From contig JAKIHM010000009.1 in NCBI GenBank assembly GCA_021608145.1, forward strand, positions 1 to 64,000: a stretch of 64,000 nt of DNA. Reading direction: 5' to 3'. The notes under the pieces are model-generated. The model searched no databases. It was not told where the DNA came from and was given only the letters and a program-made list of their open reading frames with translations. The DNA is from Thermovorax subterraneus (GTDB taxonomy: Bacteria > Bacillota > Thermosediminibacteria > Thermosediminibacterales > Thermosediminibacteraceae). Shown here piece by piece: positions 5,036 through 59,789 of this stretch. Position numbers and translations under genes: made by a program. Positions within the stretch are counted from its first letter, which is position 1. Every line of letters begins with the position of its first letter.

Positions 5036-6226
<1,191 letters not shown>

Positions 6227-9957: not shown

Positions 9958-10148
9958 GAGTTGAGGTAGAGGCGCGACACATCAAGAGTACTCCTGCAAA
10001 GGTGCGAGAGGCCAATGATGCAGGAGGAAAGGGATTGTCGCCGAAGCACAATCCGATTCTCGTAGGGTTGTGCTGGGCCTATGCCTAAGAGGTATAGGAC
10101 TGTCACCAAAAAACTTCCCCGAGTTTTTTGGTGGAGCGCTACTTCATA
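9958..10148 (+). ncRNA. Lysine riboswitch (L box) aptamer
   Basis: The conserved blocks appear in order: GAGGTAGAGGCGC, AGTA, GGAAAGG, TCGCCGAAG, GCTGGGCCT, GGACTGTCA, and the closing GTGGAGCGCTACTT. The two ends pair as P1. This matches the L-box aptamer that binds free lysine and turns off lysine genes. It sits between a strong promoter and a terminator and precedes lysA, as expected. A small 5' hairpin (TACCTCA 9942-9948 with TGAGGTA 9962-9968) could compete with P1. Confidence 0.93.
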
Positions 10149-10187
10149 ACCCTGGGGAGAGAGGAGGTATTTGCCTGTATGAAAAAA

Positions 10188-10263: not shown

Positions 10264-11592
10264 ATGCTGCACAAGAACTTGACGGTAAATGAGAAAGGCC
10301 ATCTCGAAATAAGTGGATGTGATGCGGTTGAACTTGCAAAGAATTACGGGACACCCCTTTATGTTATGGATGAATCGCTTATAAGAGAAAATTGCAGGAT
10401 TTACAAGAATGAACTTTATTCACTGCATCCGGACAGCGGTGTAATTTATGCTGCGAAAGCATTTATTACCATGTCGATGTGCAAGATAGTAGAAGAAGAA
10501 GGCCTCTTTCTCGATGTAGTGTCGGGGGGAGAACTTTATACTGCAATTAAAGCAGGTTTTCCTCTGGATAGGGTGTATTTTCACGGCAATAACAAGTCCT
10601 ACGAAGAATTGAAAATGGCTTTGGAACACAGGGTTGGACATATCGTAGTAGATAATTTCTATGAACTGGAAATGCTAAGTAGCCTCACGCGAAAGCTGAA
10701 AAAGAAGGCAAACGTACTGCTTCGCATAACGCCAGGAATAGAAGCACATACCCACGATTATATAAAGACAGGCCAAATTGACTCGAAATTCGGCTTTAGC
10801 CTTGAAAACGGAATGGCCATGGCAGCAGTAGAGAAAGCTCTAAACATAAAAGGTGTAAAATTGGTTGGTTTTCACTGCCATATTGGATCGCAGATATTTG
10901 AATCTGAACCATTTGCACTAACTGCAGAAGTTATGATGAAGTTTGTTAACTCGGTAAAAGAACGATACGGTTTTGAGACGTCTCAACTTGATTTTGGTGG
11001 AGGATTTGGGATAAAGTATACTGAGGACGATAAACCACTTCACCCGAGAGAATATTTGAAAGCATTGGTTGAAACGGTAAAGAAATGGGCAAATGAGTTA
11101 AATGTGACTGTTCCAAGGATTATGATAGAGCCCGGCAGGGCTATTGTAGGACCGGCCGGGGTAACCCTATATACAATAGGAGCAATAAAGGACATCCCGA
11201 ATGTAAGAAAATACGTCTGCGTGGATGGGGGAATGAGCGACAACATAAGGCCCGCGCTTTACGGTGCAAAATATACTGCCATCATAGCAAACAAGGCAAA
11301 TAAGCCGCCAAAAGAGGTTGTGTCAATTGCGGGAAAATGCTGCGAATCCGGGGATATGCTCATATGGGACATAAAGCTTCCGGAAGTGGAAAGCGGGGAT
11401 GTTTTGGCGGTATTGTCAACCGGAGCATACCACTATTCTATGGCAAGTAATTACAATATGATACCGCGTCCGGCTATTGTTTTTGTGAGAGATGGGGTTT
11501 CATGGCTTTCGGTAAAAAGAGAGACTTATGAAGACCTTTTAAAAAATGAGATATTCGAAGAGGAAGAAGAAGTTGCATCGTACGTCTTATGA
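10264..11592 (+). CDS. lysA: Diaminopimelate decarboxylase
   Basis: 442 aa, normal length for the family. It decarboxylates meso-diaminopimelate to L-lysine, the last step of lysine synthesis, with PLP as cofactor. Visible motifs of the alanine-racemase-fold group: YAAKAF with the PLP lysine, GFHCHIGSQI, LDFGGGFGI, EPGRAIVG, and the CCESGDML segment with the active-site Cys of the neighbouring subunit. The ATG follows AAAGGAG. The gene stands alone between its riboswitch and its own terminator, so lysine itself should control it. Confidence 0.95.
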   Translation: MLHKNLTVNEKGHLEISGCDAVELAKNYGTPLYVMDESLIRENCRIYKNELYSLHPDSGVIYAAKAFITMSMCKIVEEEGLFLDVVSGGELYTAIKAGFPLDRVYFHGNNKSYEELKMALEHRVGHIVVDNFYELEMLSSLTRKLKKKANVLLRITPGIEAHTHDYIKTGQIDSKFGFSLENGMAMAAVEKALNIKGVKLVGFHCHIGSQIFESEPFALTAEVMMKFVNSVKERYGFETSQLDFGGGFGIKYTEDDKPLHPREYLKALVETVKKWANELNVTVPRIMIEPGRAIVGPAGVTLYTIGAIKDIPNVRKYVCVDGGMSDNIRPALYGAKYTAIIANKANKPPKEVVSIAGKCCESGDMLIWDIKLPEVESGDVLAVLSTGAYHYSMASNYNMIPRPAIVFVRDGVSWLSVKRETYEDLLKNEIFEEEEEVASYVL

Positions 11593-16326: not shown

Positions 16327-16341
16327 CTCATCAATGATGAG
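16327..16341. promoter_or_regulatory. Palindromic operator candidate, copy 1
   Basis: CTCATCAATGATGAG is a perfect 7-bp inverted repeat around one central base. It is identical to the site at 20550-20564, and both have A just before and G just after. Both lie at the ribosome site of the first gene of a cobalamin-locus transcription unit. It is a likely binding site for the regulator encoded at 19756. Confidence 0.6.
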
Positions 16342-16348
16342 GAGTATG

Positions 16349-16780
16349 ATGCTTATGGGAGATCCGTATAAAAATGGCATGTTTAAAGGGGCTAATCCCT
16401 ATATTCGAAAGAAACCATTAAAAGGCAAGATAATAGTAGTCTTAGATGGAAAATACGAAGAAAGGGGCCTAAAACTAATCGTTCAACCGTCAAGATGTAT
16501 AAAGGTCGGAGAAGTACATGAGCTTATAATCACTGATGAGCCAAAAGGGCCAGGAGACATTGTAAACAGAATTGCCTATGTAGGTTTTTTTGAGGTAAAA
16601 GAAAGTGCAGTTATAGTATCAGGCGATGAGGTAAAAATTAATGGTAGAGTAATAGGTAAGATAGCAGGATACGACGAAACGCATATGCCCAACCATTATA
16701 ACATAGTGGTAAATGCTCTGGAACTTGTTACCGGGAAAGAAATGGGAATAGAGCTCGATTCAGAAATTGTCATAGGGTAA
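16349..16780 (+). CDS. Conserved protein of unknown function at the head of the cobalamin locus
   Basis: About 144 aa. No family recognised with certainty. It is beta-rich, with Gly/Val patterns (GKIIVVLDGKYEERGLKLIV, VIVSGDEVKINGRVIGKIAG) and a central ITDEPKGPGDIVNRIAYVGF. No signal peptide or cysteines. Several ATG codons (16334, 16337, 16346, 16349, 16355) are in frame. GAGGAG at 16339-16344 suggests 16349 or 16355. It lies 73 nt before the PLP enzyme gene and shares the operator, so it is probably a subunit or an accessory protein of that pathway. Confidence 0.7.
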   Translation: MLMGDPYKNGMFKGANPYIRKKPLKGKIIVVLDGKYEERGLKLIVQPSRCIKVGEVHELIITDEPKGPGDIVNRIAYVGFFEVKESAVIVSGDEVKINGRVIGKIAGYDETHMPNHYNIVVNALELVTGKEMGIELDSEIVIG

Positions 16781-16853
16781 TTAGATAAAGGTTGAGAATT
16801 AGGCGGTTAAATTTGCCGCTTGGTTCCATAAATTTCATGAGGAGGGTTAAAGA

Positions 16854-18320
16854 ATGCCAAAGTTTAAAAAGAAATTCGAAATGTATAGACACCTTCAGGC
16901 AAATATTGCCAACATCTATGCGGAGGCCAAAAAAGCAGCTGATGAAATCGGTATACCCCCTGAGATTAGAGGAAAATTCGGCCTTACGGGAGCTATATCG
17001 GGCTGCCCTTCACCCCTGACCAAAAAAGTAAGGGAAGCTGTAGAAAAGGGAAGCACCGAAGTTATTCCTCTTGCCAAGTTGGTGGATGAAATAAGAGCTA
17101 TAGTGAAGGATGTATATGGAGATGAATATGACGCAGCACCCATAAACACTTGCGAAGCTGGTTTATGGGTAACCTTTGATGTGCTATTTACTCCGCCGAT
17201 GCAGGGTAGAGGCGACAATTACCTCAGCCGCTATATAATACCTTATGAAAAACACTTGCATCATCATGGAGGATATGGAAGACCTTACCCGCCCCGCTTC
17301 AAAGACATTTTCGCAGACCGGGGCTGCACTGCAGGTGAACTTGGATTCTATGGAAAAAGACAAAACAATCTGAGTGTCCATATCGTACCACTAGTAGGTG
17401 CGGATTATTCGGTGCATGGAATCAAATACCATCCTGCGATTTTACTGACAAAAGTTGACCCCGAGGCATCAGCGAAAAAGATAAAAGAAGCTGCACAAAG
17501 AAATGCTTCCATGCTGGCGGGCATAACCTCTCTAGCCTATGATACCCCAGGTTACGGATACGGTGTAAAGGATGCCGATGGAACACCGGTGCTTCAAAAG
17601 AAACTTGCGGAAATTGCCCATGAGTTTGACGTACCTTATGTTTTGGATAACGCGTGGGGTGTGCCGTTTATAGGCCATGACATAAGAAAAAGCGGAGCAG
17701 ACGTTATTATTTACAGCATGGATAAAGCCAGTGAATCCACAACCGCAGGCCTTATAATCGGAAAAGAGGAGTACATGGTTCCCATAAGAAGGGCTCTGGG
17801 TTACCACGGAGATAGATACGGCACTACGGCTTCTTATGGAAAAGCTGCCTACGTAACCAATGACCCGGGTAAAGAAGCTTTGTTGGGTGTCATTGCAGCA
17901 TTAAAAGAATTAAGGGAAAACCCCGAAGAACTTACCAAGCCTGTGGACGACCTTTACGAAATAGTAAAAGAAGAATTTGAAAACATACATCCGAAGATAA
18001 AAAAAGGCTTAATAATAAGCAAGTCTTACAACAGCAGGGCGGTGGAAGTAAATTACGAAAACACTTGGAATGGCGAAGAATTGGGATTGCCGATATTTAC
18101 CATAGAAGATATGTATGCAGGAACGAATATATTCCAGAGTGGAATGTCGCAAATGGGTGTAATCCCCACGGTAGCTTACGATGCAAACATTATGATATCG
18201 CCGGGGTTGGGAACCACAGACGATAACGGTCAGATAATAGAGGATAGAGCAAGATTAGCAGTGCGGGCTCTTGTCAGGCTGATTGAAATTGTGGCCAAAT
18301 ATAGTGGTTATATTGATTAA
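16854..18320 (+). CDS. PLP-dependent fold-type I enzyme, exact reaction unknown
   Basis: 488 aa. VLDNAWGVPF (Asp265) and YSMDKASESTTAG (Lys291) have the spacing of the cofactor-binding Asp and Schiff-base Lys of fold-type I enzymes (aminotransferases, lyases, decarboxylases). ISGCPSPLTKK and the His-rich HLHHHGGYGRPYPPRF are distinctive. I do not recognise the family closely enough to name a substrate. The ATG follows AGGAGGG. The FAD enzyme gene starts 29 nt after it. The operon context suggests amino-acid catabolism linked to a B12 mutase. Confidence 0.8.
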   Translation: MPKFKKKFEMYRHLQANIANIYAEAKKAADEIGIPPEIRGKFGLTGAISGCPSPLTKKVREAVEKGSTEVIPLAKLVDEIRAIVKDVYGDEYDAAPINTCEAGLWVTFDVLFTPPMQGRGDNYLSRYIIPYEKHLHHHGGYGRPYPPRFKDIFADRGCTAGELGFYGKRQNNLSVHIVPLVGADYSVHGIKYHPAILLTKVDPEASAKKIKEAAQRNASMLAGITSLAYDTPGYGYGVKDADGTPVLQKKLAEIAHEFDVPYVLDNAWGVPFIGHDIRKSGADVIIYSMDKASESTTAGLIIGKEEYMVPIRRALGYHGDRYGTTASYGKAAYVTNDPGKEALLGVIAALKELRENPEELTKPVDDLYEIVKEEFENIHPKIKKGLIISKSYNSRAVEVNYENTWNGEELGLPIFTIEDMYAGTNIFQSGMSQMGVIPTVAYDANIMISPGLGTTDDNGQIIEDRARLAVRALVRLIEIVAKYSGYID

Positions 18321-18349
18321 ATAAAAAGAAACTTTTAGGGGGTCATAGG

Positions 18350-19633
18350 ATGCCTAAAGTTATAGTAATAGGCGGAGGGTGGTCGGGATGTGCTGCCGCC
18401 CTTGCCGCCAGAAAAGCCGGTGCGGAAGTTGTGTTGCTCGAAAGAACCGATATGTTATTGGGAACTGGTTTGGTAGGCGGAATCATGCGCAACAACGGTC
18501 GCTTCACTGCTACGGAAGAAATGATTGCAATGGGAGCCGGGGAACTGTTTGAAGTTACTGACAAGGTAGCAAGACATAAAAACGTGGAGTTTCCAGGCCA
18601 TAAACACGCCACCCTTTATGATGTATCTAGGGTTGAACCTGCTGTAAAAAAAGTTCTCCAAGAAGCTGGCATTGAGATTCATACGATGAGCCGAGTAAGA
18701 GACATCGAAATGGAAGGGAATAAAATCAAAGCCGTCATAACCGATAATGATGAAGTATTTACTGGAGATGTATTTGTGGAATGCACAGGAACTGCAGGTC
18801 CTCAGAATAACTGCACTAAATATGGAAACGGATGTGCCATGTGCATCTTAAGGTGTCCGAGCTACGGTGGGCGTGTCAGCATAGCAGCGAAAGCTGGAGT
18901 AAAAGAGATGATGGCGAAAAAAGCCGATGGAACGTTCGGGGCGATGAGCGGCTCCTGTAAACTGCATAAAGATTCTCTATCCGAAGAAATAGTAGAAAAA
19001 CTTAATACCACCGGCGTGGCTGTCATCCCGGTTCCCCCTGAGGTTAGAGAAGATGAGAAAATCCTGACCAAAAAAGCCTGCCAGCAATATGCCTTAAAAG
19101 AATTCGTGGAAAATGTCGTATTGCTCGATACAGGCCATGCGAAATTGATGACGCCCTATTTCCCGCTCGACCAGTTGAGAAGAATTCCAGGATTTGAAAA
19201 CGCCCGCTATGAAGATCCTTATGCAGGTAACCTGGGCAACTCAATGAGATATATGGCGATGTCGCCGCGAGATAATTGCCTGAAAGTTCAGGGAGTGGAT
19301 AATCTTTTCTGTGCAGGAGAAAAGGCAGGTCCTTTGGTGGGACACACTGAGGCGATATGCACAGGGACGCTAGCCGGTGCTAATGCTGTGAGGTACGCGG
19401 TAGGGGCGAGTTTGGCGACAATTCCGACAGAACTGGCAGTAGGTGATGCCATTGCTTATGTAAACGAACAGATGAAGACGGAAGAAGGAATTTCAAAGAA
19501 ATATACTTTTTCTGGATCAGTATATTTTGAAAGAATGAAACAATTAGATTTGTATACTACCGAGGTGGATAAAATAAGAGAAAGGGTTAAAAAAGCCGGC
19601 ATGCTGGAGTTCTTCAATCAACAGATCGTATAA
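18350..19633 (+). CDS. FAD-dependent oxidoreductase with a four-cysteine motif (copy 1)
   Basis: 427 aa. The N-terminal Rossmann motif VIVIGGGWSGCAAALAARKA binds FAD, and VDNLFCAGEKAGPLVGHTEA near residue 320 is the second FAD contact. Residues 155-169 (NCTKYGNGCAMCILRC) form C-x6-C-x2-C-x3-C, able to hold an Fe-S cluster or zinc. The fold resembles MnmG/TrmFO-type flavoproteins, but the sequence is not theirs. A close paralog lies at 24794. It probably carries out a redox step on the pathway intermediate. Last gene before a strong terminator. Confidence 0.8.
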   Translation: MPKVIVIGGGWSGCAAALAARKAGAEVVLLERTDMLLGTGLVGGIMRNNGRFTATEEMIAMGAGELFEVTDKVARHKNVEFPGHKHATLYDVSRVEPAVKKVLQEAGIEIHTMSRVRDIEMEGNKIKAVITDNDEVFTGDVFVECTGTAGPQNNCTKYGNGCAMCILRCPSYGGRVSIAAKAGVKEMMAKKADGTFGAMSGSCKLHKDSLSEEIVEKLNTTGVAVIPVPPEVREDEKILTKKACQQYALKEFVENVVLLDTGHAKLMTPYFPLDQLRRIPGFENARYEDPYAGNLGNSMRYMAMSPRDNCLKVQGVDNLFCAGEKAGPLVGHTEAICTGTLAGANAVRYAVGASLATIPTELAVGDAIAYVNEQMKTEEGISKKYTFSGSVYFERMKQLDLYTTEVDKIRERVKKAGMLEFFNQQIV

Positions 19634-19646
19634 TTAGATGTTTATA

Positions 19647-19683
19647 TAGACAAAAAGGGGCGTATAAAGCCCCTTTTTGTCTA
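19647..19683 (+). terminator. Strong terminator after the first cobalamin-locus unit
   Basis: A perfect 15-bp stem from TAGACAAAAAGGGGC (19647-19661) to its complement (19669-19683) with loop GTATAAA. It contains an A-run/T-run pair and so may work in both directions. Confidence 0.85.
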
Positions 19684-19755
19684 AAAAATGATTTTTTTGG
19701 ACATCAAAATATTGTATAATGTAAAGTGAGAATACTAGTTCTTCAGGAGGATAGT

Positions 19756-20499
19756 ATGTCTTCTGAAAAAAAGCAATTATTGTATCAAGTCCTCAAGACC
19801 ATATCGAATTCATCTGTCCCGGTGGGGTCGGGTTTTGTTCGTGAAAGCTTGAGACTGAACGGCTATGACATAAGTGAAGCTACTGTTGGGAGAATATTAA
19901 GAGAGATGGATGCTGAAGGCTTTACAGAAAAAGTAGGTTTTAAAGGGAGGATATTGACATCTTACGGCATAGAAAAATTGAGAGAATTAGAACATGACCA
20001 CAAAATAAACCACTACGGAAATGAACTCATAAACGCTATAAAAGTTACCGGTAGAAAAAATCTAATCGACATTTTGATTGCCAGGAAAGTTATAGAAAGT
20101 CAACTGGCAAGATTTGCTGCCCAATATATAACTCAACGAGAACTCAAGGAAATTGAAGAAGTGATAAAATTTCAACGGATTCACGTAGAAAAGGGGCTTT
20201 CGATCGCTGAAGACGATGTCAGATTTCATAAACTGATAGCTCAAGCTGCTAGAAATAGGGTCCTTGATGCGGCGTTGGACCTCATAAGACAACACGGGCA
20301 GCTATCGCCGGTTTTGGAATATATAAGAAAAAAAGTTAAGAGTAAGGTGTTGCTGGACCACGAGAAGATTTTCGAGGCTATAGCTTCGAGGGACCCAGAA
20401 GCGGCGGAAAATGCCATGGTAAAACATATAGAGAATTTGATCGAAGATGTTGAAAAATATTGGAATATGGTATATGAGAGTGATGATGCTAATATGTGA
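19756..20499 (+). CDS. Winged-helix / FCD-domain transcriptional regulator
   Basis: 247 aa. The N-terminal 75 residues (VPVGSGFVRESLRLNGYDIS, EATVGRILREMDAEGFTEK, GRILTSYG) look like the HTH_12 winged helix of NrpR or RNase R rather than a GntR helix. The C-terminal part (DVRFHKLIAQAARNRVLDAA, DHEKIFEAIASRDPEAAENA) is an FCD ligand-binding domain, which often binds small acids through a metal. I choose ATG 19756, behind AGGAGG. It sits between the two operator-carrying units and is the best candidate to bind CTCATCAATGATGAG. Confidence 0.8.
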   Translation: MSSEKKQLLYQVLKTISNSSVPVGSGFVRESLRLNGYDISEATVGRILREMDAEGFTEKVGFKGRILTSYGIEKLRELEHDHKINHYGNELINAIKVTGRKNLIDILIARKVIESQLARFAAQYITQRELKEIEEVIKFQRIHVEKGLSIAEDDVRFHKLIAQAARNRVLDAALDLIRQHGQLSPVLEYIRKKVKSKVLLDHEKIFEAIASRDPEAAENAMVKHIENLIEDVEKYWNMVYESDDANM

Positions 20500-20549
20500 A
20501 ATGATTTTACTTAAGTACAAAGTTTTTAAATTATTTATATACATTACTA

Positions 20550-20564
20550 CTCATCAATGATGAG
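20550..20564. promoter_or_regulatory. Palindromic operator candidate, copy 2
   Basis: CTCATCAATGATGAG, identical to 16327-16341, sits 15 nt before the ATG of the next gene and immediately before its GGAGG. An AT-rich TATATA at about 20536 could be the -10 box, which would place the palindrome just after the transcription start, a repressor position. Confidence 0.6.
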
Positions 20565-20576
20565 GGAGGAATTTTA

Positions 20577-20816
20577 ATGTCAAAAGCTCTAGAAAAGGTT
20601 ATGGATGCCGTAGATATAGAAACGTTTCTGGTTTGCGACAGCGAAGAGGAAGCAAGGAAGATTTCCATGCAAATGATGAATGAACTGGGATTTTGTAATG
20701 CAAGCATTGTTTTCATACAATACCTTGGTCCGGGTGCCAGAGTAAGAGTAAGAGGATATATATATAAACCCGGAGAGCGGTATAACTGGTTTTACGATGA
20801 GAATAATAGTCAATGA
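20577..20816 (+). CDS. Small protein (79 aa), probable partner of the B12 mutase-like protein
   Basis: 79 aa, no family recognised. It begins with a helix (SKALEKVMDAVDIETFLVCD), continues with EEARKISMQMMNELGF, and ends with a basic beta-like segment (PGARVRVRGYIYKPGERYNW). It ends 12 nt before the mutase-like gene and has its own GGAGG. By analogy with the small S subunits of B12 mutases it may be a subunit or chaperone, but it lacks the B12-binding motif, which is in the large protein here. Confidence 0.7.
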   Translation: MSKALEKVMDAVDIETFLVCDSEEEARKISMQMMNELGFCNASIVFIQYLGPGARVRVRGYIYKPGERYNWFYDENNSQ

Positions 20817-20828
20817 GGGGGAAAAACT

Positions 20829-22649
20829 ATGACTTCACAGAAGAAAAAGGTACTGCTTGCCCCGTTAGATCCGGTTCATGACATCGGCCTTAAAATGATA
20901 AAGAGAGGCCTAGAGTTGGCAGGGCATGATGCCATTCTCCTCCCGCCAGATTATTCTCCTGAAGAAATTATTAAAGCTGCCATAGACAATAACGTGGATG
21001 TAATATTAATCAGCAGAACTCTTGGATATAGGGTGGCTGAAATCCTGGGGAGTTTCATAGATCTAGCCGAGGCATCCGGATTAAGAGAAAGGGTAAAAAT
21101 AGGTATCGGAGGTATGGCGATTAAGCCAGAGCTTGCCGCGGAACTAGGATTTGACGCAGGTTTTGGACCCGGAACCACCGTTGAAGAAGCTATAGCCTTC
21201 GTTGAAGGCAGGGAATATATAGAAAAAGATAGAGGTGCGCGAAAGACGAAAAAAGATATAACGGAGAAATACGATTATACGTTCAAAAACAAAAGAATAG
21301 AAAAGTTATTGAATACTATTGCCGATGAAATAATTGAATACGTGAAAGGCAAAACGACTCCCGGTATCGAAAGGGCAAAAATCCGTGAGAAGATGTTTGA
21401 AAGCGACGATGAGGCCGAATTGAGGCAATTGAGGAAGGAATATGCTGCTTTTTGCGACGACATAGTAAAGGCATATTATGCTAATGGTGCTTTAAAAGAA
21501 AAAACAAGGCAGCTTACTTCGGAAGAATTGAAAGCATTAAAGAGCTATTTAGAAAAAGTAAAAACAAAAATGAAACCGTTGAATTTGCAGCATATTGATA
21601 CTAATCCCGTAGTTTTTATCCAATACGGAACCGGTTGCCCCTTCATGGATATAGCACACATCAAAACCTGTGAGGCATGGGGTGCGGACGGCGTCGTTCA
21701 TTTCGACCCTTCGTGGGGGGCCAGGACTGAAGGTTTTTACGAAGGTTTCATCACCCACGAAGAAGACGGTTCCGTTATAACTTATGAAAATCTCAAGCTT
21801 ATAAAAGATGCACTGATGCCTTCCACGCTGTGGCAAGTAAGAGCTCATCGAGGCTTAAACACACCAGAGACTGTCTTGCTTGCAGGAAAAGTGGGAGCGG
21901 ATTTAACAAAAATAAATATAGCTTATGGTTCTTTAGGAGGAGGCACCGACCCCGAAAGGCTTACTGTAGATGCAGTCGCTGCAATTAAATATGCGGCCAA
22001 ATTTAAAATGCCTTTCGATGTAGTTACTAATGAAGAGTTGTGTGGAGTGCCGGCGCACAAAGCATTTGCAGGAATGTTAATCGTTACAGTGCTGGGGCTC
22101 AAACTAGGTGCCCGGCCAATCCTTCAACCGTTATTCTGCTATTCGCCTGAAGTTATGATAAATGGCCAAATGAAAGACAATTACATCGACTTCAATGCGG
22201 CAAAGATAATTGCCTTAAAAAGAATAATAAACGCACCAATCTGGTGCGGTGCACCTATCGGATTTTTGACCCAGACAGAGGACAGGGTTCAATCTTCGTT
22301 AAGTACGGCCTTACATGCATCGCTAGCTTCTTCGTTAGAAGTTGATGGAATTTCCATCGCTTCTGCCGATGAAGCTTATTCGGGCGGACCTATATCTGCT
22401 GCTGCAAGGGTCGACACTCTCAGAGCAACTCAATCGGCATTTAGATTTTTCGGACATGCTAAAATAATTCCCACCGAAAATTCCGAAGTTTGGGCTTCCC
22501 AGATTGTGGAAGGCATAGAACGTACCCTCGAGTCGGTTGTTAAAAATGGCAGTTTTGTGGATGCCCTTTATAAGGGGCTATTGGGAAGCCGTGAAGAAGG
22601 AGCATACCCGGGAAGGGCAGGCCGCGGCACGGTAATAAAGAATATTTAA
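20829..22649 (+). CDS. Cobalamin-dependent mutase-like protein, B12 domain at the N-terminus
   Basis: 606 aa. Residues 8-125 form a B12-binding Rossmann domain: LDPVHDIGLKMIKRGLELAG carries the lower-ligand-type His17, with ISRTLG and IGIGGMAI at the second and third family positions. The DxHxxG Asp is one residue early (D14-P-V-H17). After a charged linker comes a barrel-like domain (about 255-600) with QVRAHRGLNTPETVLLAGKV, LTKINIAYGSLGGGTDPERL and SADEAYSGGPISAAAR, which looks most like the catalytic subunit of glutamate mutase. It probably catalyses an adenosylcobalamin radical rearrangement of an amino or organic acid. Substrate unknown. Confidence 0.75.
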   Translation: MTSQKKKVLLAPLDPVHDIGLKMIKRGLELAGHDAILLPPDYSPEEIIKAAIDNNVDVILISRTLGYRVAEILGSFIDLAEASGLRERVKIGIGGMAIKPELAAELGFDAGFGPGTTVEEAIAFVEGREYIEKDRGARKTKKDITEKYDYTFKNKRIEKLLNTIADEIIEYVKGKTTPGIERAKIREKMFESDDEAELRQLRKEYAAFCDDIVKAYYANGALKEKTRQLTSEELKALKSYLEKVKTKMKPLNLQHIDTNPVVFIQYGTGCPFMDIAHIKTCEAWGADGVVHFDPSWGARTEGFYEGFITHEEDGSVITYENLKLIKDALMPSTLWQVRAHRGLNTPETVLLAGKVGADLTKINIAYGSLGGGTDPERLTVDAVAAIKYAAKFKMPFDVVTNEELCGVPAHKAFAGMLIVTVLGLKLGARPILQPLFCYSPEVMINGQMKDNYIDFNAAKIIALKRIINAPIWCGAPIGFLTQTEDRVQSSLSTALHASLASSLEVDGISIASADEAYSGGPISAAARVDTLRATQSAFRFFGHAKIIPTENSEVWASQIVEGIERTLESVVKNGSFVDALYKGLLGSREEGAYPGRAGRGTVIKNI

Positions 22650-22667
22650 CTTTCGGAGGTAATAAGG

Positions 22668-23738
22668 GTGCGAATAATCGGCGTTGCCGGTACTGCCAAA
22701 AACACCGGCAAAACTACGACAATATCAGGGCTTCTTAGATGTGTATCTCAGTCCTCGAAAACAAAAGTAGGCTTGACCAGCATAGGTTACGACGGGGAAG
22801 AGATTGATAACATAACGGGGCTAGTAAAACCCAGGTTGTTTTTAAACAAAGGTAACGTAGTGGCTACTGCCATCACTTTAATAAATGTAGGAAGTGCAGA
22901 ATTGAAAATTATAGAAGAAACCGATGTTTTTACACCATTAGGAAGGGTTATAATTGCCGAAGTGAAAAAAGATGGACTCGTAGTGGTAGCTGGCCCTAAT
23001 AAGAGTTTGGAACTTAAAATAGTCGTCGAGGCGATGTTAGAAGAATTGGGATGCGAAATTGTTCTAGTCGACGGAGCATTGAATAGAATAGCGCCGATGG
23101 CAATCACTGATGGCTTGATTATTGCAACAGGTGCAGCAAGAAATCCCGACGTGGCCGAGTTGGTTCAAGAGACGAGGCATATTTGTGATATATTGGATTT
23201 GGCTGAGACGGAAGAAAGCTATAAAAAGATAGTAAGCGATATAAAAACAATCGCGGTGATTAATAAAGGAGGCAAAATAGATACCTATCGCTATTCGGCG
23301 TTAATTCATGATGACATAGTGTCAGAACTGAGAAAAATTATAACCGACGATGCCCGTGCCGTGTATATACCCGCTGCCGTTTCCCAGCCGGCACTGGAAA
23401 AACTTTTAGAAATATTAGGTGCTAGGTTAAGCGGTTTTACAATTCTCCTTCATGATCCGATAAAACTTCTGGTGAGTGCAAGTCCCGAAAGAATAGTGAG
23501 GACCATAAATAAGGTAGAAGTTTTAAAAGGGCGAATTGAAGTATTGAAAAAAGTGCCGGTTTTGGCGGTAACTATAAATCCTTTCTATCCCCGATATTTG
23601 TTTGATAAAAATATTTACGAACCAGCTTATGTAGATGAAGAGCTGTTGAGAGAAGAGATGCAAAAGGCACTGCCGCTGCCAGTTGTGAATATACTAAAAG
23701 ATGGTGCTGATATTTTAATGAAAATATTGGGATTTTAA
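22668..23738 (+). CDS. P-loop NTPase, possible reactivating or assembly factor for the B12 protein
   Basis: 356 aa. The Walker A motif GTAKNTGKT lies at residues 8-16, and EIVLVDGALNR (about 128) and VINKGGKID follow. SIGYDGEEIDN resembles a switch region of a SIMIBI-class NTPase. B12 mutases are often accompanied by ATP- or GTP-driven reactivases, and the position 18 nt after the mutase-like gene supports such a role. This is inference. The gene ends in a terminator. Start GTG behind GGAGG. Confidence 0.7.
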   Translation: MRIIGVAGTAKNTGKTTTISGLLRCVSQSSKTKVGLTSIGYDGEEIDNITGLVKPRLFLNKGNVVATAITLINVGSAELKIIEETDVFTPLGRVIIAEVKKDGLVVVAGPNKSLELKIVVEAMLEELGCEIVLVDGALNRIAPMAITDGLIIATGAARNPDVAELVQETRHICDILDLAETEESYKKIVSDIKTIAVINKGGKIDTYRYSALIHDDIVSELRKIITDDARAVYIPAAVSQPALEKLLEILGARLSGFTILLHDPIKLLVSASPERIVRTINKVEVLKGRIEVLKKVPVLAVTINPFYPRYLFDKNIYEPAYVDEELLREEMQKALPLPVVNILKDGADILMKILGF

Positions 23739-23747
23739 GGATTTTAG

Positions 23748-23777
23748 GGTCGAATCCGTTGCGATTCGGCCTTTTTT
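23748..23777 (+). terminator. Terminator after the P-loop gene
   Basis: GGTCGAATC / GATTCGGCC (one G-T pair) with a 6-nt loop, followed by TTTTTT. It separates the mutase unit from the PyrK-like/FAD pair. Confidence 0.85.
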
Positions 23778-23846
23778 CTTTATCACAGTTCGAAAGGGAC
23801 ATTCATAAATTAATTTTAGGTGTATTTTTTTAGAGGGGTGGTACTC

Positions 23847-24791
23847 ATGGTGTTTACCTACAAGTGCATAGATGCGCTTTCACCTTATTGCCCTTGCTAC
23901 CTTGCTGAAACTCAAAGCTGTATTGTGTGTTCCGTGCTCCAAGGGAAAGACACGTGCGATTGCAATTGGCAGGGATTTTGCGTCTATCAAGAATATATAT
24001 GGAACGGGAGAAAAAAGAAAAATTTTAGAAAAGCATTAGAGGTAAAAATTTCAGAAAAAAAGGTTATTAACGAGAACCTTGCAATATTTAAAGTAATGCT
24101 TCCCTTACCTGCTTCAAGTAGAGATTTCAGCCAGCCCGGAACTTTTGTATTTTTGAAGTCTCTTGACAGTCCCTCTTATTTTGAACTTCCATTATGTGTG
24201 ATGAATGCGAATGAAGATGAAAACAGCTTAATCTTTGCCGTCCAGGTAATCGGTCCAAAAACTAAAAGTTTAGTTCAAGAAAATAGGGGTTTTTTATTAA
24301 GAGGGCCCTATTTTAACGGGGTTTTAGGTTTAAAACATATAAAAGCAGCTAAAGGCAAAAATTGTCTATTGATTGGCAGGGGAATCGGGCAGGCCTCGCT
24401 TGTCTTGATAGCTAAGGCTCTCATTCGAGGAGAAAATGAGATAGCTGCTTTATTAGATCCTGGTGCAATTAATTATAATCTCGCCGAAGATTATTTAAAA
24501 AAATTGAACGTAGCAATTAAGTTTTTTGAAAAAGAGTACCTTGTATTAGGAGATATAGTGTTGAATCTGATAAAAGAAAGAAATATTGAAATGATTTACA
24601 GCGGCGGCTCGGATATCCAGCATGATTTGGTAAAATCAATTATCATCCAAAGCAGTAGAAAGATAGACCTGGTGATATCTAACAACGCCCTTATGTGCTG
24701 TGGGGAGGGAGTTTGCGGAAGCTGTGCGGTTACGTTGGGCTCTGAAAAGATAAAATTTTGCAAAGCACAATTAGAAAATTGGGGGGCTTAA
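23847..24791 (+). CDS. PyrK-like flavin / 2Fe-2S electron-transfer reductase
   Basis: 314 aa. The N-terminus has eight cysteines within about 45 residues (including SPYCPC, CIVC, CDC), which could bind a metal cluster. A ferredoxin-reductase FAD domain (FSQPGTFVFLK, FELPLCVMN) and an NAD domain (LIGRGIGQASLVLIAKAL) follow. The end, CCGEGVCGSC, is the 2Fe-2S ligand set of the dihydroorotate dehydrogenase electron-transfer subunit. It probably passes electrons from NAD(P)H to the FAD enzyme encoded next, three bases away. I start at ATG 23847, after AGAGGGGTGG. Confidence 0.8.
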   Translation: MVFTYKCIDALSPYCPCYLAETQSCIVCSVLQGKDTCDCNWQGFCVYQEYIWNGRKKKNFRKALEVKISEKKVINENLAIFKVMLPLPASSRDFSQPGTFVFLKSLDSPSYFELPLCVMNANEDENSLIFAVQVIGPKTKSLVQENRGFLLRGPYFNGVLGLKHIKAAKGKNCLLIGRGIGQASLVLIAKALIRGENEIAALLDPGAINYNLAEDYLKKLNVAIKFFEKEYLVLGDIVLNLIKERNIEMIYSGGSDIQHDLVKSIIIQSSRKIDLVISNNALMCCGEGVCGSCAVTLGSEKIKFCKAQLENWGA

Positions 24792-24793
24792 AT

Positions 24794-26104
24794 ATGCCTA
24801 AAGTTATAGTTATAGGTGGCGGATGGGCGGGATGCGGTGCGGCGTTGGCCGCAAGAAAAGCGGGAGCTGAAGTGGTGATTTTGGAAAAGACTGATATGCT
24901 TCTTGGGTGCGGACTCGTGGGAGGCATAATGAGGAACAATGGCCGCTATACCGCAGCAGAAGAGGCAATTGCGTTAGGTGCAGGAGAGCTATTTGAAATT
25001 GCGGATGAAACCGCACGTCATCGCAATGTGGACTTTCCTGGACATTCCCACGCCACACTATATGATGTTGTAAAAATAGAACCCCGTGTGAGAAAATTTT
25101 TAGAAAAAATGGGAGTGGAACTTCGCTTTCAATCAAGAGCGGTGGATGTCAAAATGGAGAGAAAAAGGATAAAAAGTATAGTGTTAGCCGATGGCGAAAC
25201 AATCGAAGGTGATATGTATGTGGAAACCACCGGTTCTTCGGGGCCTATGGGAAATTGCGTTAAGTACGGTAATGGATGCTGTATGTGTATACAAAGATGT
25301 CCTGCCTTTGGGCCAAGAGTCAGTATTAGTGAAAAAGCAGGAGTAGAAGACCTTGTCGCTAAAAGATCTCCGGACCTTTACGGTGCGATGAGCGGTTCAT
25401 GTAAATTGAACAAAGATTCGCTCGGAGAAGATATAAAAAAGGAATTGGAGGAAAAAGGAGTGGTTGTGATAAAGTTGCCCGAAGAGTTTATTAATAAAGA
25501 AAAACTTTCGATAAAAGTATGCCAGCAATACGCTTTAGATGAGTTCGCCGAGAACATTGTTTTATTAGATACCGGACACGCAAAGCTCATGGCACCGTTT
25601 TTCAGTTTGGATGAATTGAGAAAAATTAAGGGATTTGAAAATGTTCGTTTTGAGGATCCTTATGCGGGAAGCAAAGGAAATTCTATAAGATATATGTCTA
25701 TGGCACCCAGGGATGACTACCTGCAAGTGGAAGGAGTTGAAAACCTGTTTTGTGCGGGAGAAAAGTCCGGGCCAATTGTCGGCCATACCGAAGCTGTTTG
25801 CACGGGAATTCTTGCGGGTCACAATGCGGTAAGGAAGGCACTAGGACTGGATCTTTTGAAACTGCCAAGAGAACTGGCTATTGGCGACATTATAGCTTAC
25901 GTCAACGAGGAGATTAAAAAGCCCGATGGACTTTATAAACGCTTTACTTTTGCCGGTTCTGCTTACTTCGAGCGGATGAAGAAATTCGGGCTTTACCTTA
26001 CAGAAAAAGAGGCAATAAGAAAGAAGGTAAAAGATCTTCAACTTTATAACGTTTTCAATGGAAATCTCGTCACAAATGAAGGAAAACGGCAACACGACGT
26101 ATAA
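24794..26104 (+). CDS. FAD-dependent oxidoreductase with a four-cysteine motif (copy 2)
   Basis: 436 aa and clearly paralogous to the gene at 18350 over its whole length: MPKVIVIGGGWAGCGAALAA at the FAD site, LLGCGLVGGIMRNNGRYTAA, the cysteine motif NCVKYGNGCCMCIQRC (one extra Cys), and NLFCAGEKSGPIVGHTEAVC. The gene starts directly after the PyrK-like gene, with GGGGGG as ribosome site, suggesting that the two proteins form an electron-transfer complex. It has its own transcription unit after the terminator at 23748, so expression may differ from that of copy 1. Confidence 0.8.
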   Translation: MPKVIVIGGGWAGCGAALAARKAGAEVVILEKTDMLLGCGLVGGIMRNNGRYTAAEEAIALGAGELFEIADETARHRNVDFPGHSHATLYDVVKIEPRVRKFLEKMGVELRFQSRAVDVKMERKRIKSIVLADGETIEGDMYVETTGSSGPMGNCVKYGNGCCMCIQRCPAFGPRVSISEKAGVEDLVAKRSPDLYGAMSGSCKLNKDSLGEDIKKELEEKGVVVIKLPEEFINKEKLSIKVCQQYALDEFAENIVLLDTGHAKLMAPFFSLDELRKIKGFENVRFEDPYAGSKGNSIRYMSMAPRDDYLQVEGVENLFCAGEKSGPIVGHTEAVCTGILAGHNAVRKALGLDLLKLPRELAIGDIIAYVNEEIKKPDGLYKRFTFAGSAYFERMKKFGLYLTEKEAIRKKVKDLQLYNVFNGNLVTNEGKRQHDV

Positions 26105-27423: not shown

Positions 27424-28254
27424 TTGGAACTGTGGTTTTCAGAAATGCAATCTAAAAATGTAAAGATGAGCTATAAAATAAAGAATCTGCTTCATTCGGA
27501 AAAGACTAAATTCCAAAACCTCGCAGTTATAGATAGCGAGGAATTTGGCAGAATGCTAATACTAGACGATGTGGTACAGCTGACTATGAAGGATGAGTTC
27601 ATCTACCATGAAATGATGGCTCACGTGCCTTTATTTACTCATGGAAGCCCCGAAAGGGTTTTGGTTATTGGTGGTGGAGACGGAGGCACGCTTCGTGAAA
27701 TTTTAAAACATCCAGTAAAAGAGGCTCATCTGGTCGAAATAGATGAAAAAGTTATCGAGGCATCGAAGAGATTTTTCCCAGAACTAAGTGTCGCTTTTGA
27801 CGACCCCAGAGCAAAGATTTTCTGCGAAGACGGTATTGCTTACGTCAAGAGGTTTAAAAACTATTATGATGTTATCATAGTTGATTCAACGGATCCCGTG
27901 GGTCCAGCTGTAGGTCTTTTCAGAAAAGAATTCTACAAAGATATTTTTGATGCTTTGACAGAAAAAGGAGTTTTTGTAGCGCAGACCGAATCTCCCTTTT
28001 ATTATGAAGGATTGTTGAAAGAAGTTTATAATTGTATTGCCGAAATATTCCCATATGCTGCTGTTTATACAGCTGTTATTCCTACATATCCAGGTGCTCT
28101 TTGGACGTTTACTATGGGTTCTAAGCAAGTAGACCCAGGTGACAAAGCGAACGTTCCGGAAAGCTGTAATTTTAAAACCAGGTACTACACGCCGGAAATC
28201 CATAAGGCTTGCTTTAAAATACCTCCATTTATAAAAGAAATCCTTTCTAAATAG
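27424..28254 (+). CDS. speE: Spermidine synthase (polyamine aminopropyltransferase)
   Basis: 276 aa, normal length. It moves the aminopropyl group from decarboxylated SAM to putrescine. Motifs: IDDVVQ-like LILDDVVQLTMKDEF, VLVIGGGDGGTLREILKHP (dcSAM binding), VEIDEKVIEASKRFFPEL, DGIAYVK and VIIVDSTDPVGPA with the catalytic Asp. The start is TTG after GGAGTG. speB follows after 14 nt and speH lies 8 kb downstream, so the spermidine route is partly clustered. Confidence 0.95.
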   Translation: MELWFSEMQSKNVKMSYKIKNLLHSEKTKFQNLAVIDSEEFGRMLILDDVVQLTMKDEFIYHEMMAHVPLFTHGSPERVLVIGGGDGGTLREILKHPVKEAHLVEIDEKVIEASKRFFPELSVAFDDPRAKIFCEDGIAYVKRFKNYYDVIIVDSTDPVGPAVGLFRKEFYKDIFDALTEKGVFVAQTESPFYYEGLLKEVYNCIAEIFPYAAVYTAVIPTYPGALWTFTMGSKQVDPGDKANVPESCNFKTRYYTPEIHKACFKIPPFIKEILSK

Positions 28255-28268
28255 AAGAGGGGAGAAAA

Positions 28269-29132
28269 TTGCTGGAATTTAATAGATTAGTGAATCAAGG
28301 AAGATTTCTCCAGGCAAAGGACGATTACGATGAGAGTAGGGCTGTTATTACAGGCGTTCCAATGGACTTTACCGTAAGTTTCAGACCGGGGACCAGGATG
28401 GCCCCGAGAAAAATAAGGGAGGTTTCGTATGGATTGGAAGATTTTAGCCCTTATTTGCAGGATACGCTTCAGAATAAATCTTTTTACGACGCAGGGGATT
28501 TAGACCTCCCTTATGGAAACGTGGCAAAAAGCCTCGAAATTATCGAACAGGCTGCCAAGATCATCTTGAATGATGGGAAAATACCGGTATTTATCGGAGG
28601 AGAGCATCTCATTACATATCCTATAGTAAGACAAGTTGCAAAAAAATATCCAGAGCTTAAAGTTTTACACTTTGACGCTCATGCAGACTTGAGGGATACC
28701 TTTTTTGACGAAAAGCTATCCCATGCCACGGTGATGCGCAGGGTTTGTGAATGCATCAAGGAAAGACACTTATATCAATACGGTATAAGGTCTGGTATAA
28801 AAGAAGAGTTTGAGTATGCAAAACACCATACAAATATGTATTTGATAGATGTAAAAGGACCTTTTTTAGAAAGCCTGGAACAAATAAAAGGATATCCGGT
28901 TTATATTACTATAGATATCGACGTGGTAGACCCGGCCTTTGCTCCGGGAACGGGGACGCCCGAACCCGGAGGTTGTAGCTCTCAAGATATACTAGAAGTG
29001 GTTTCTCATTTCAGGCAACTGAACGTGGTGGGGTTTGATATTGTGGAGGTATCGCCCTTGAGCGACTTTTCAGAGAGGACTTCCTTGCTTGCTGCTAAGA
29101 TTTTAAGGGAAGTGTTGATTTCAATTTGTTAG
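28269..29132 (+). CDS. speB: Agmatinase
   Basis: 287 aa. A ureohydrolase with the binuclear Mn site: GGEHL, VLHFDAHADLRD and YITIDIDVVDPAFAPGTGTP. In this context (speE upstream) it hydrolyses agmatine to putrescine and urea. The start is TTG behind AGAGGGGAG. A possible alternative within the family is formiminoglutamase or guanidinobutyrase, but the position next to spermidine synthase favours agmatinase. Confidence 0.9.
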   Translation: MLEFNRLVNQGRFLQAKDDYDESRAVITGVPMDFTVSFRPGTRMAPRKIREVSYGLEDFSPYLQDTLQNKSFYDAGDLDLPYGNVAKSLEIIEQAAKIILNDGKIPVFIGGEHLITYPIVRQVAKKYPELKVLHFDAHADLRDTFFDEKLSHATVMRRVCECIKERHLYQYGIRSGIKEEFEYAKHHTNMYLIDVKGPFLESLEQIKGYPVYITIDIDVVDPAFAPGTGTPEPGGCSSQDILEVVSHFRQLNVVGFDIVEVSPLSDFSERTSLLAAKILREVLISIC

Positions 29133-29151
29133 AAGCTTGGTGAAAATTGTT

Positions 29152-30396
29152 ATGTCTGAACTTGAAGTAAAAAATTTGGCCTATAGTTACAAGAAAAGAA
29201 AGGTTCTAGAAGATATCTGTCTGGAAATAAGGGCCGGACAGTTTGTTGGCATACTGGGGCCTAACGGATCAGGTAAAACCACTTTGCTTAATAACATAAA
29301 TAGGTGGCTTAAGCCTCAAAAAGGGGTAATTTTTATAGAAGGACAAAATATAGAGCGTATGTCGACAAAAGTCTTGGCACAAAATATTGCTACTGTACCT
29401 CAGGAAACCTCTTTGGATTTAGGGTTTACCGTTGAAGAAATTGTAATGATGGGCAGAAATCCTTATTTAAGGACTTTTGAGCGGGAAAATTCTGAGGACC
29501 TTGCCGTTGTAGAAAGTTGCATGAAATCGGTGGGGATATGGGAATTGAGAGATAGATTGATCAGCGAGTTGAGTGGGGGCGAAAAACAGCGGGTTTTGAT
29601 AGCCCGCGCCCTCGCCCAACAACCAAAAGTACTTTTATTGGACGAACCCATTTCCCACCTGGATATCAATTATAAGTGGGAAATTCTTGAATTATTGAAG
29701 AAGTTGAGCAGAAATCTTAAAATAATTGTAATAGCTGTTCTTCATGATATAAACTTGGCATCAATATTTTGTGACAAACTAATTCTCTTAAAAAATGGTA
29801 AAATATTTAAAGTAGGTTCTCCCCATGAAGTTCTTACCGAAGAGAATCTAAAGGAAGTATTCAATGTCAATCTGAAAATAACCACAGGGACTTATGGCCT
29901 CCCGATGATAATTTTTCCGCAGCCATTGGAAAAATTTCAAAAAGCAAAGCAGTTCCACAGCATCCACGTCATTTGCGGTGGAGGAGCCGGTGAAAAAGTA
30001 CTGTACTACCTTCAGAGGAAAGGGTATAAAGTATCAACTGGTGTTTTGAATATTGGTGATACGGACTGGAAAGCAGCCAAGGAGCTCGGAGTTGATGTAG
30101 TAGAGGATCCTCCATTTTCACCCATTTCGGAAGAAAAATCAAAAGTAAACAGATTTTGCATAGATAATTCCGATGCCGTTGTCTTATGTAATATCCCCTT
30201 TGGTTACGGTAATTTGAAGAATTTAATAACCCTGAAAGATGCGGTGTTAGAAGGCAATAAAAGGACTTTTGTTTTGGACGAAACCCCAATTGAGAAAAGG
30301 GACTACACCAATGGACTTGCTAAAAAAGTTTACCGGCAAATTTTGACCAAGGCGGTTATATTTCGTTCATTCGACGAGCTACTAGACTTTTTTTAA
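29152..30396 (+). CDS. ABC transporter ATPase (FecE/BtuD-like) with an extra C-terminal domain
   Basis: 414 aa. The first 250 residues are a complete ABC ATPase: GILGPNGSGKTT (Walker A), LSGGEKQRVLIARALAQQPK, VLLLDEPISHLDI, and the H-loop LHDINLAS. This subtype serves siderophore, haem or cobalamin uptake. A further domain of about 150 residues (VICGGGAGEKVLYYLQRKGY, DAVVLCNIPFGYGNLKNLIT) has a Rossmann-like pattern and unknown role. No permease or binding protein lies nearby. ATG 29152 seems the likeliest start; a TTG and a GTG precede it. It may supply the cobalamin locus, but that is inference. Confidence 0.8.
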   Translation: MSELEVKNLAYSYKKRKVLEDICLEIRAGQFVGILGPNGSGKTTLLNNINRWLKPQKGVIFIEGQNIERMSTKVLAQNIATVPQETSLDLGFTVEEIVMMGRNPYLRTFERENSEDLAVVESCMKSVGIWELRDRLISELSGGEKQRVLIARALAQQPKVLLLDEPISHLDINYKWEILELLKKLSRNLKIIVIAVLHDINLASIFCDKLILLKNGKIFKVGSPHEVLTEENLKEVFNVNLKITTGTYGLPMIIFPQPLEKFQKAKQFHSIHVICGGGAGEKVLYYLQRKGYKVSTGVLNIGDTDWKAAKELGVDVVEDPPFSPISEEKSKVNRFCIDNSDAVVLCNIPFGYGNLKNLITLKDAVLEGNKRTFVLDETPIEKRDYTNGLAKKVYRQILTKAVIFRSFDELLDFF

Positions 30397-59534: not shown

Positions 59535-59789
59535 AAGTCACCTACCCCCGCTTGTAGAAGCGGGGCTTGTCGGCAGGGGTGAACTGCTGACAGGTCTGCC
59601 ACCGGCAGGTAGTTGAACGCGGGTGTGTGGCAGCGGGACATGACGCTCCGGGACGACACTCCCAGTCCCGGGAGACAGCGGTGAAATCCCGTAGCCTTAC
59701 ACGGGGTGCTGCCACACGCCTCAGGGAGACCCACCACCTTTCAAAAAGGTGCCCGGATCACAGGGCTCCTTACAGAAGGAGGAGAAAAG
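59535..59789 (+). ncRNA. HEARO / omega RNA of the IscB locus
   Basis: 255 nt of GC-rich, densely paired sequence in an AT-rich chromosome, without a plausible reading frame. Stems: CCCCGCTT / AAGCGGGG (59546-59565), CCGGGAC / GTCCCGG (59648-59671), a long-range GTGTGGCAGC (59625-59634) with GCTGCCACAC (59708-59717) enclosing the central domain, and CACCTTT / AAAGGTG (about 59734-59750). Its position just upstream of an IscB-type gene is that of HEARO/omega RNAs, which guide the nuclease. The guide would lie at the 5' end, near or before 59535. Confidence 0.85.

Follow-up and report, generated by a model that had tools for sequence, protein, structure and literature searches.

The locus described here occupies positions 16327–26104 of a 64,000-nucleotide (nt) window, the whole stretch of DNA that was analysed, in contig JAKIHM010000009.1 of Thermovorax subterraneus. 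Its nine open genes, all oriented in the same direction, are more likely than not to specify a dedicated and induced catabolic route of anaerobic Bacillota, built around a new adenosylcobalamin (AdoCbl) radical mutase that probably does without pyridoxal phosphate (PLP) bound in the known way. From 5′ to 3′ they encode a DUF6917 protein, a 488-amino-acid (aa) PLP enzyme, a flavin adenine dinucleotide (FAD) oxidoreductase with a four-cysteine (Cys4) motif (oxidoreductase a), an FCD regulator, a 79-aa protein, a 606-aa mutase, a 356-aa P-loop protein, a PyrK-like protein and a second FAD/Cys4 oxidoreductase (b) (Table 1). An earlier annotation made without database searches (hereafter the sequence-only reading) had named eight of these proteins; all eight are open frames at the place and in the order that it gave, and domain searches back each label, but its list missed the DUF6917 gene inside the interval. 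The locus genes keep 50–98% identity across 48 sampled loci and are therefore not chance frames. The carriers are anaerobic, heat-loving bacteria that share a tightly conserved, co-regulated gene set, and the genome of the window is that of a close relative of Fervidicola ferrireducens, whose 606-aa protein is 98% identical.

Sequence searches with the 606-aa protein detected its B12 domain alone, with KamE and OraE as the best solved matches. The B12 motif of this protein, DPVHDIG, contains a putative cobalt ligand, H17, which is invariant in an alignment of 39 homologues (52–100% identical to the window protein). In an AlphaFold (AF2) model based on this alignment (pLDDT 88.5), residues 151–606 have as their best solved match the alpha subunit of lysine 5,6-aminomutase (5,6-LAM; 8t0v_A, Z 33.0, 392 residues, 3.6 Å), with glutamate mutase E (Z 26.5) and ornithine aminomutase (OAM; Z 26.3) scoring lower. 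Profile comparisons by hhalign, for which actual KamD, KamE and OraE sequences were taken from related genomes, aligned the barrel with the KamD profile (E 6e-5, collinear across 302 columns) and the B12 domain with the KamE profile (E 8e-24, 36% identity). The 79-aa protein matches the profile of the KamE dimerisation domain (E 2.5e-6); its match to PF16554 (OAM_dimer; E 0.015) lies below the cut-off. Positions 508–722 of the OraE model align in order from the 79-aa gene on into the 606-aa gene. Two features of class III aminomutases, a KamD/OraE-type TIM barrel and a KamE/OraE-type B12 domain with an axial histidine, are present, and the 606-aa and 79-aa pair is a domain-shuffled relative of these enzymes. 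We infer that the 606-aa protein would bind AdoCbl in the His-on mode.

A tree of B12 domains places the 606-aa protein with KamE and OraE (87/79, not starred), and its homologues form a separate clade there (100/98). The protein is not orthologous to a characterised mutase; it belongs to a clade of its own, none of the curated families searched names it, and PF06368 (the GlmE family) gave no match. The HDIG form of its B12 motif resembles corrinoid methyltransferase proteins, which score weakly, and would suit a corrinoid methyltransferase or some other non-radical B12 protein. We consider such a function highly improbable, as AdoCbl mutases are by far the nearest matches of the barrel, the B12 domain clusters with those of KamE and OraE, and a mutase-type dimerisation domain and a reactivase accompany the protein.

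The sequence-only reading had proposed a B12 route distinct from all the known glutamate, ornithine and lysine clusters, and the domain searches and the neighbourhood survey agree with it. With KamD/KamE/KamB the locus shares the barrel fold and collinear profile, a KamE-type B12 domain (including the stretch DAGFGPG), a dimerisation domain and a KamB-family reactivase. KamD and KamE had been described as absent, which is correct for orthologues but not for homologues, since the 606-aa and 79-aa proteins are distant KamD/KamE relatives. Unlike in KamD/KamE, however, the B12 domain precedes the barrel in one chain, the dimerisation domain is a separate protein, and the PLP lysine and nearly all PLP contacts are missing; the partner genes also differ (DUF6917, PLP lyase-like, FAD/Cys4 and FCD genes). 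The label of P-loop NTPase was likewise right but incomplete, as the 356-aa protein scores 246 bits on NCBIfam NF052386 (lysine 5,6-aminomutase reactivase subunit KamB), above the cut-off of 210. True KamB proteins score 316–398 bits, which places the 356-aa protein in a sister group of KamB. Its membership of the KamB family, together with the homology to KamD and KamE, indicates that the locus derives from aminomutase systems; far from being unrelated to the aminomutase family, it forms one of its divergent branches.

With OraS/OraE the locus shares ancestry and the presence of barrel and B12 domain in a single chain, but the domain order is opposite (barrel, dimerisation domain, B12 domain in OraE), and there is no OraS and no equivalent of OraE K629. 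The reported absence of OraE is true of the locus, where neither an OraS nor an OraE orthologue was found, but not of the genome: a true, complete OraE lies elsewhere (G000:C10:13786-15963, L112) next to a GlmL/OraE-reactivase-like protein, so ornithine fermentation is distinct from the locus studied here. GlmE/GlmS have the same TIM barrel fold and a B12 domain with H-x-x-G-x-K. The profile match to them is not significant (hhalign E 0.02), and the locus differs from them in lacking GlmL, in having the two domains fused and in possessing a dimerisation domain. A GlmE-like arginine claw (R299/R338/R377, equated with R66/R100/R149) was discarded as evidence because actual GlmE sequences give R66 no counterpart.

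PLP is bound in 5,6-LAM and OAM as an imine to a lysine in the B12 domain (KamE K144, OraE K629), and its contacts in the KamD barrel are R184, G187-Q188-S189, Y236, S238, Y263, R268 and N299 (PMC3958899). The lysine lies 11 residues past the cobalt-binding histidine and is carried on the class-III insertion. This insertion is missing from the 606-aa protein, whose B12 domain has no counterpart of this PLP-binding lysine; the corresponding position (His+11) is L28, invariant across the alignment. In the profile alignment, KamD R184 falls on an invariant D293, Y236 on A339, S238 on an invariant R341 and R268 on G371, and G187-Q188-S189 and N299 fall in gaps. Y263 (here Y366) is the only one retained of the nine barrel contacts checked, and the other phosphate and ring contacts are lacking. 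Since the class-III insertion, the PLP lysine and all but one of the nine further contacts are missing, the 606-aa protein is probably an AdoCbl mutase that lacks the known mode of PLP binding. It could alternatively be an ordinary PLP-dependent class III aminomutase for a new amino acid with a rebuilt site, in which K361, K411 or K22 bound PLP and R299/R338/R341 held the phosphate. The shared lineage with KamDE and OraE, the KamB-family reactivase and the invariance of K22, K361, K411, R299, R338, R341 and Y366 all speak for such an enzyme. We nevertheless regard it as unlikely, since no trace of the lysine-carrying insertion remains and neither the residues that bind the phosphate (R184 and G-Q-S) nor the pyridine contact S238 have been kept. 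K22 occupies what we take to be the position of a common lysine of mutase B12 domains, which also counts against it.

Occurrence was surveyed in an even sample of 398 Bacillota genomes and, beyond Bacillota, in plasmid and phage records. The full-length mutase was found in 39 of the 398 genomes, the PLP-enzyme family in 40 and DUF6917 in 40, and 39 carry all three. Two genomes depart from this pattern: G074 carries the PLP gene alone, and G398 carries DUF6917 together with a piece of the PLP gene at a contig edge. DUF6917 is therefore present in every genome with the mutase, and none was found in 14 control genomes. As the sequence-only reading had anticipated for a neighbourhood survey, the genes recur together across many Bacillota families, in 48 sampled loci. 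In L062 and L142 the locus is split into two units, DUF6917-PLP-FAD and RidA-79aa-mutase-KamB. The FAD oxidoreductases, which are indeed paralogous as that reading stated, match GIDA/FAD_oxidored models, with weak matches to GidA/TrmFO models, and the motif C-x6-C-x2-C-x3-C-P occurs in 47 of 49 family members. The PyrK-like gene is present in nine of the 48 clustered loci. Literature searches returned no paper on DUF6917 or on this gene set.

The palindromes reported earlier as shared within the locus are also real. The sequence CTCATCAATGATGAG has its only exact copies in the window at 16327–16341 and 20550–20564, where each abuts a ribosome-binding site, that of the DUF6917 gene and that of the 79-aa gene, respectively. 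When up to three mismatches were allowed, the window contained 12 matches against 1.7 expected, a number reached in none of 100 shuffles. The palindrome CTCATC-N3-GATGAG lies about 20 base pairs (bp) 5′ of DUF6917 in most loci that carry it, and 22–26 bp 5′ of the 79-aa gene in many. It was found in 33 of 39 loci with an FCD gene and in two of nine without (Fisher p 6e-4; related loci are not independent). From this association the FCD protein, whose helix-turn-helix is of the HTH_12 type instead of the usual GntR, is presumably the protein that binds CTCATC-N3-GATGAG.

The whole 2.45-Mb genome contains three palindromes, where base composition predicts 0.12. About 90 bp separate the third from a downstream gene for a 462-aa membrane protein, unlinked to the locus; members of this protein family occur within the locus in other genomes. 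Searches with the 462-aa protein in Pfam, NCBIfam and PDB sequences gave no match. A palindrome before a transporter of this type recurs in nine further genomes (G003, G004, G009, G011, G012, G013, G015, G022 and G024), whereas G006, a close relative without the locus, has no palindrome copies. A backward control pattern gave no matches in 18 genomes. Because the third copy precedes a transporter found within the locus elsewhere, the two locus halves and the unlinked transporter gene constitute a small dedicated regulon.

In other genomes further genes are linked to the palindrome: in L178 one for an EamA permease; in L169 those for a DHDPS-family protein and a dipeptide ABC transporter, a pair that has its counterpart in L171; in L167 those for a NIF3-like protein and an amidohydrolase; and in L176, starting 60 bp beyond the palindrome, those for RidA and the four subunits of a 2-oxoacid:ferredoxin oxidoreductase. 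Sites in L177, L181 and apparently L182 lie inside coding sequence, were judged to be chance occurrences and were not counted; one in L174 was discounted as an oxidoreductase operator, since 1 kb separates it from the oxidoreductase genes. At 5583–8113 in L077, the relative that has diverged most, the palindrome is followed by genes for an iron-sulfur protein and an aldehyde:ferredoxin oxidoreductase. The presence of RidA, a 2-oxoacid:ferredoxin oxidoreductase operon and permeases in the regulon suggests that an amino compound is catabolised to a 2-oxo acid, and the regulon as a whole fits uptake of an amino compound and its breakdown to a 2-oxo acid and acyl-CoA.

The 488-aa PLP enzyme has an invariant D290-K291 pair, of which K291 is the probable PLP lysine. 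It resembles SelA, DgaE and SepCysS in a weak profile and fold match near this lysine, but falls far below all curated cut-offs (43.6 bits against 385 for TIGR01437, DgaE; 15.1 against 268 for TIGR00474, SelA) and has long conserved stretches of its own. A RidA/YjgF gene adjoins the PLP-enzyme gene in many relatives. In the betaproteobacterium Variovorax paradoxus (CP063167.1; L189, 8071–13878), a PLP enzyme 45% identical to it also has a RidA neighbour, with no B12 module nearby. This recurrent pairing in Bacillota and Variovorax suggests an enamine or imine as the product of the PLP enzyme. The Variovorax neighbourhood also includes a GntR regulator and an ABC transporter whose binding protein is of the taurine/sulfonate type, a possible hint of a sulfonated amino compound as substrate; a sulfonate substrate was kept as a lead only, because the Bacillota loci conserve nothing specific to sulfur. 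No substrate emerged either from second copies of the PLP gene (L136-L145), since their neighbours vary by genome (threonine genes; a class V aminotransferase with MmgE/PrpD; a thiamine pyrophosphate enzyme) and have no common theme.

The fold of the PLP enzyme, nearest to SepCysS, SelA and similar proteins, would also suit a biosynthetic locus in which SelA/SepCysS-like and GidA-like enzymes made a modified amino acid or cofactor on a carrier. The weak GidA/TrmFO matches of the FAD proteins point the same way, as does one genome (L142) in which the PLP module lies beside threonine-biosynthesis genes. Biosynthesis is nonetheless quite improbable: in this genome and many others the operator is common to the locus and a dedicated transporter, the permeases, the peptide transporter and one 2-oxoacid oxidoreductase operon behind the operator elsewhere indicate breakdown, and the locus has a patchy presence (39 of 398 genomes).

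A catabolic route around the mutase would begin with uptake of the substrate by the co-regulated transporter. The complex of the 606-aa and 79-aa proteins would catalyse an AdoCbl radical 1,2-rearrangement, with cobalamin base-off and His17-on in the B12 domain of the larger subunit and the smaller protein supplying the dimerisation domain that is fused to the B12 domain in KamE and OraE. The KamB-type P-loop protein would exchange damaged cobalamin. Before or after the mutase, the PLP enzyme may act as an enamine- or imine-forming lyase, by elimination or deamination, as its RidA linkage suggests, and RidA in many relatives would hydrolyse the product to a 2-oxo acid. Electrons would pass, as the motifs suggest, through the FAD/4Fe-4S and PyrK-like proteins to NAD(P), and the FCD protein would repress both locus halves and the unlinked transporter through CTCATC-N3-GATGAG. 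We infer from these data the radical chemistry of the mutase, its PLP independence, the catabolic direction and order of the reactions, and an amino acid as the substrate. More tentatively, and with less than even confidence, the mutase may be PLP-free, having evolved on the aminomutase scaffold or being ancestral to it, and may perform a previously undescribed rearrangement in a new anaerobic amino-compound pathway in which DUF6917 is obligatory.

Several observations weigh against this catabolic route and its mutase. All aligned members carry Pro where DxHxxG has Asp (DPVHD-x-G), an unusual feature for a functional AdoCbl mutase. With a barrel only about 16–18% identical to KamD and a shallow mutase profile, whose effective sequence number is about 2, single-residue mapping outside the motif blocks is uncertain. 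RidA of the PF14588 type is missing from the genome of the window itself, the 2-oxoacid oxidoreductase is convincingly palindrome-linked in one genome only (L176), and no substrate-specific downstream enzyme is conserved among the loci.

To our knowledge, very few AdoCbl mutase reactions have been described. A conserved sister group of the aminomutases in which the domains are shuffled and the PLP site is missing would show how PLP is acquired or lost among B12 mutases, and the regulon, with its transporter and specific operator, offers a direct handle on the substrate. DUF6917, a family of unknown role that is almost confined in our sample to locus-bearing genomes, gains a placement in a pathway. 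Loss of the PLP site, clean co-occurrence and a compact regulon together make a long-unassigned pathway testable.

Table 1. Features of the mutase locus and of the unlinked, co-regulated gene; positions are those of the window unless another contig is given.
Feature	Position	Strand	Remarks
Palindrome CTCATC-AAT-GATGAG, putative operator	16327..16341	.	Overlaps Shine-Dalgarno region of DUF6917 gene
DUF6917 protein	16334..16780	+	PF21891 E 2.3e-49; probable start ATG at 16346, just after operator
488-aa fold-type-I PLP enzyme	16854..18320	+	Distant from SelA/DgaE/SepCysS
FAD oxidoreductase a	18350..19633	+	Cys4 motif C-x6-C-x2-C-x3-CP at residues 155-169; probable 4Fe-4S
Intrinsic-terminator-like hairpin	19642..19688	+	20-nt arms, 90% complementary, 7-nt loop; separates locus halves
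HTH_12 + FCD transcriptional regulator	19726..20499	+	Pfam FCD 81 bits, cut-off 24
Second exact palindrome	20550..20564	.	12 bp 5′ of 79-aa gene start codon
79-aa protein, stand-alone dimerisation domain	20577..20816	+	Related to KamE/OraE dimerisation domain
606-aa mutase	20829..22649	+	About 1-135 KamE-type B12 domain; about 150-606 KamD-type TIM barrel
KamB-family mutase reactivase (P-loop), 356 aa	22668..23738	+	NF052386 246 bits, cut-off 210
PyrK-like FAD/NAD electron-transfer protein	23820..24791	+	NF004470 353.6 bits, cut-off 313; C-terminal cysteine cluster
FAD oxidoreductase b	24791..26104	+	62% identical to a; same Cys4 motif
462-aa integral membrane protein	L163:5375-6763, G000:C11	-	13 predicted segments in a relative

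Elsewhere in the window, a 492-aa protein encoded at 59706–61184 (+) matches the NCBIfam model of the IscB RNA-guided endonuclease (E 3.6e-28, below cut-off); an Rfam scan, the only search made, gave no guide RNA near it. Genes for a spermidine synthase, an agmatinase and a corrinoid/heme-type ABC ATPase lie downstream of the locus at 27424–30396 (+) and are conserved neighbours in the order, without palindrome control. A Lysine riboswitch (Rfam RF00168, 140 bits) at 9959–10149 (+) is located immediately 5′ of lysA, the diaminopimelate decarboxylase gene at 10264–11592.

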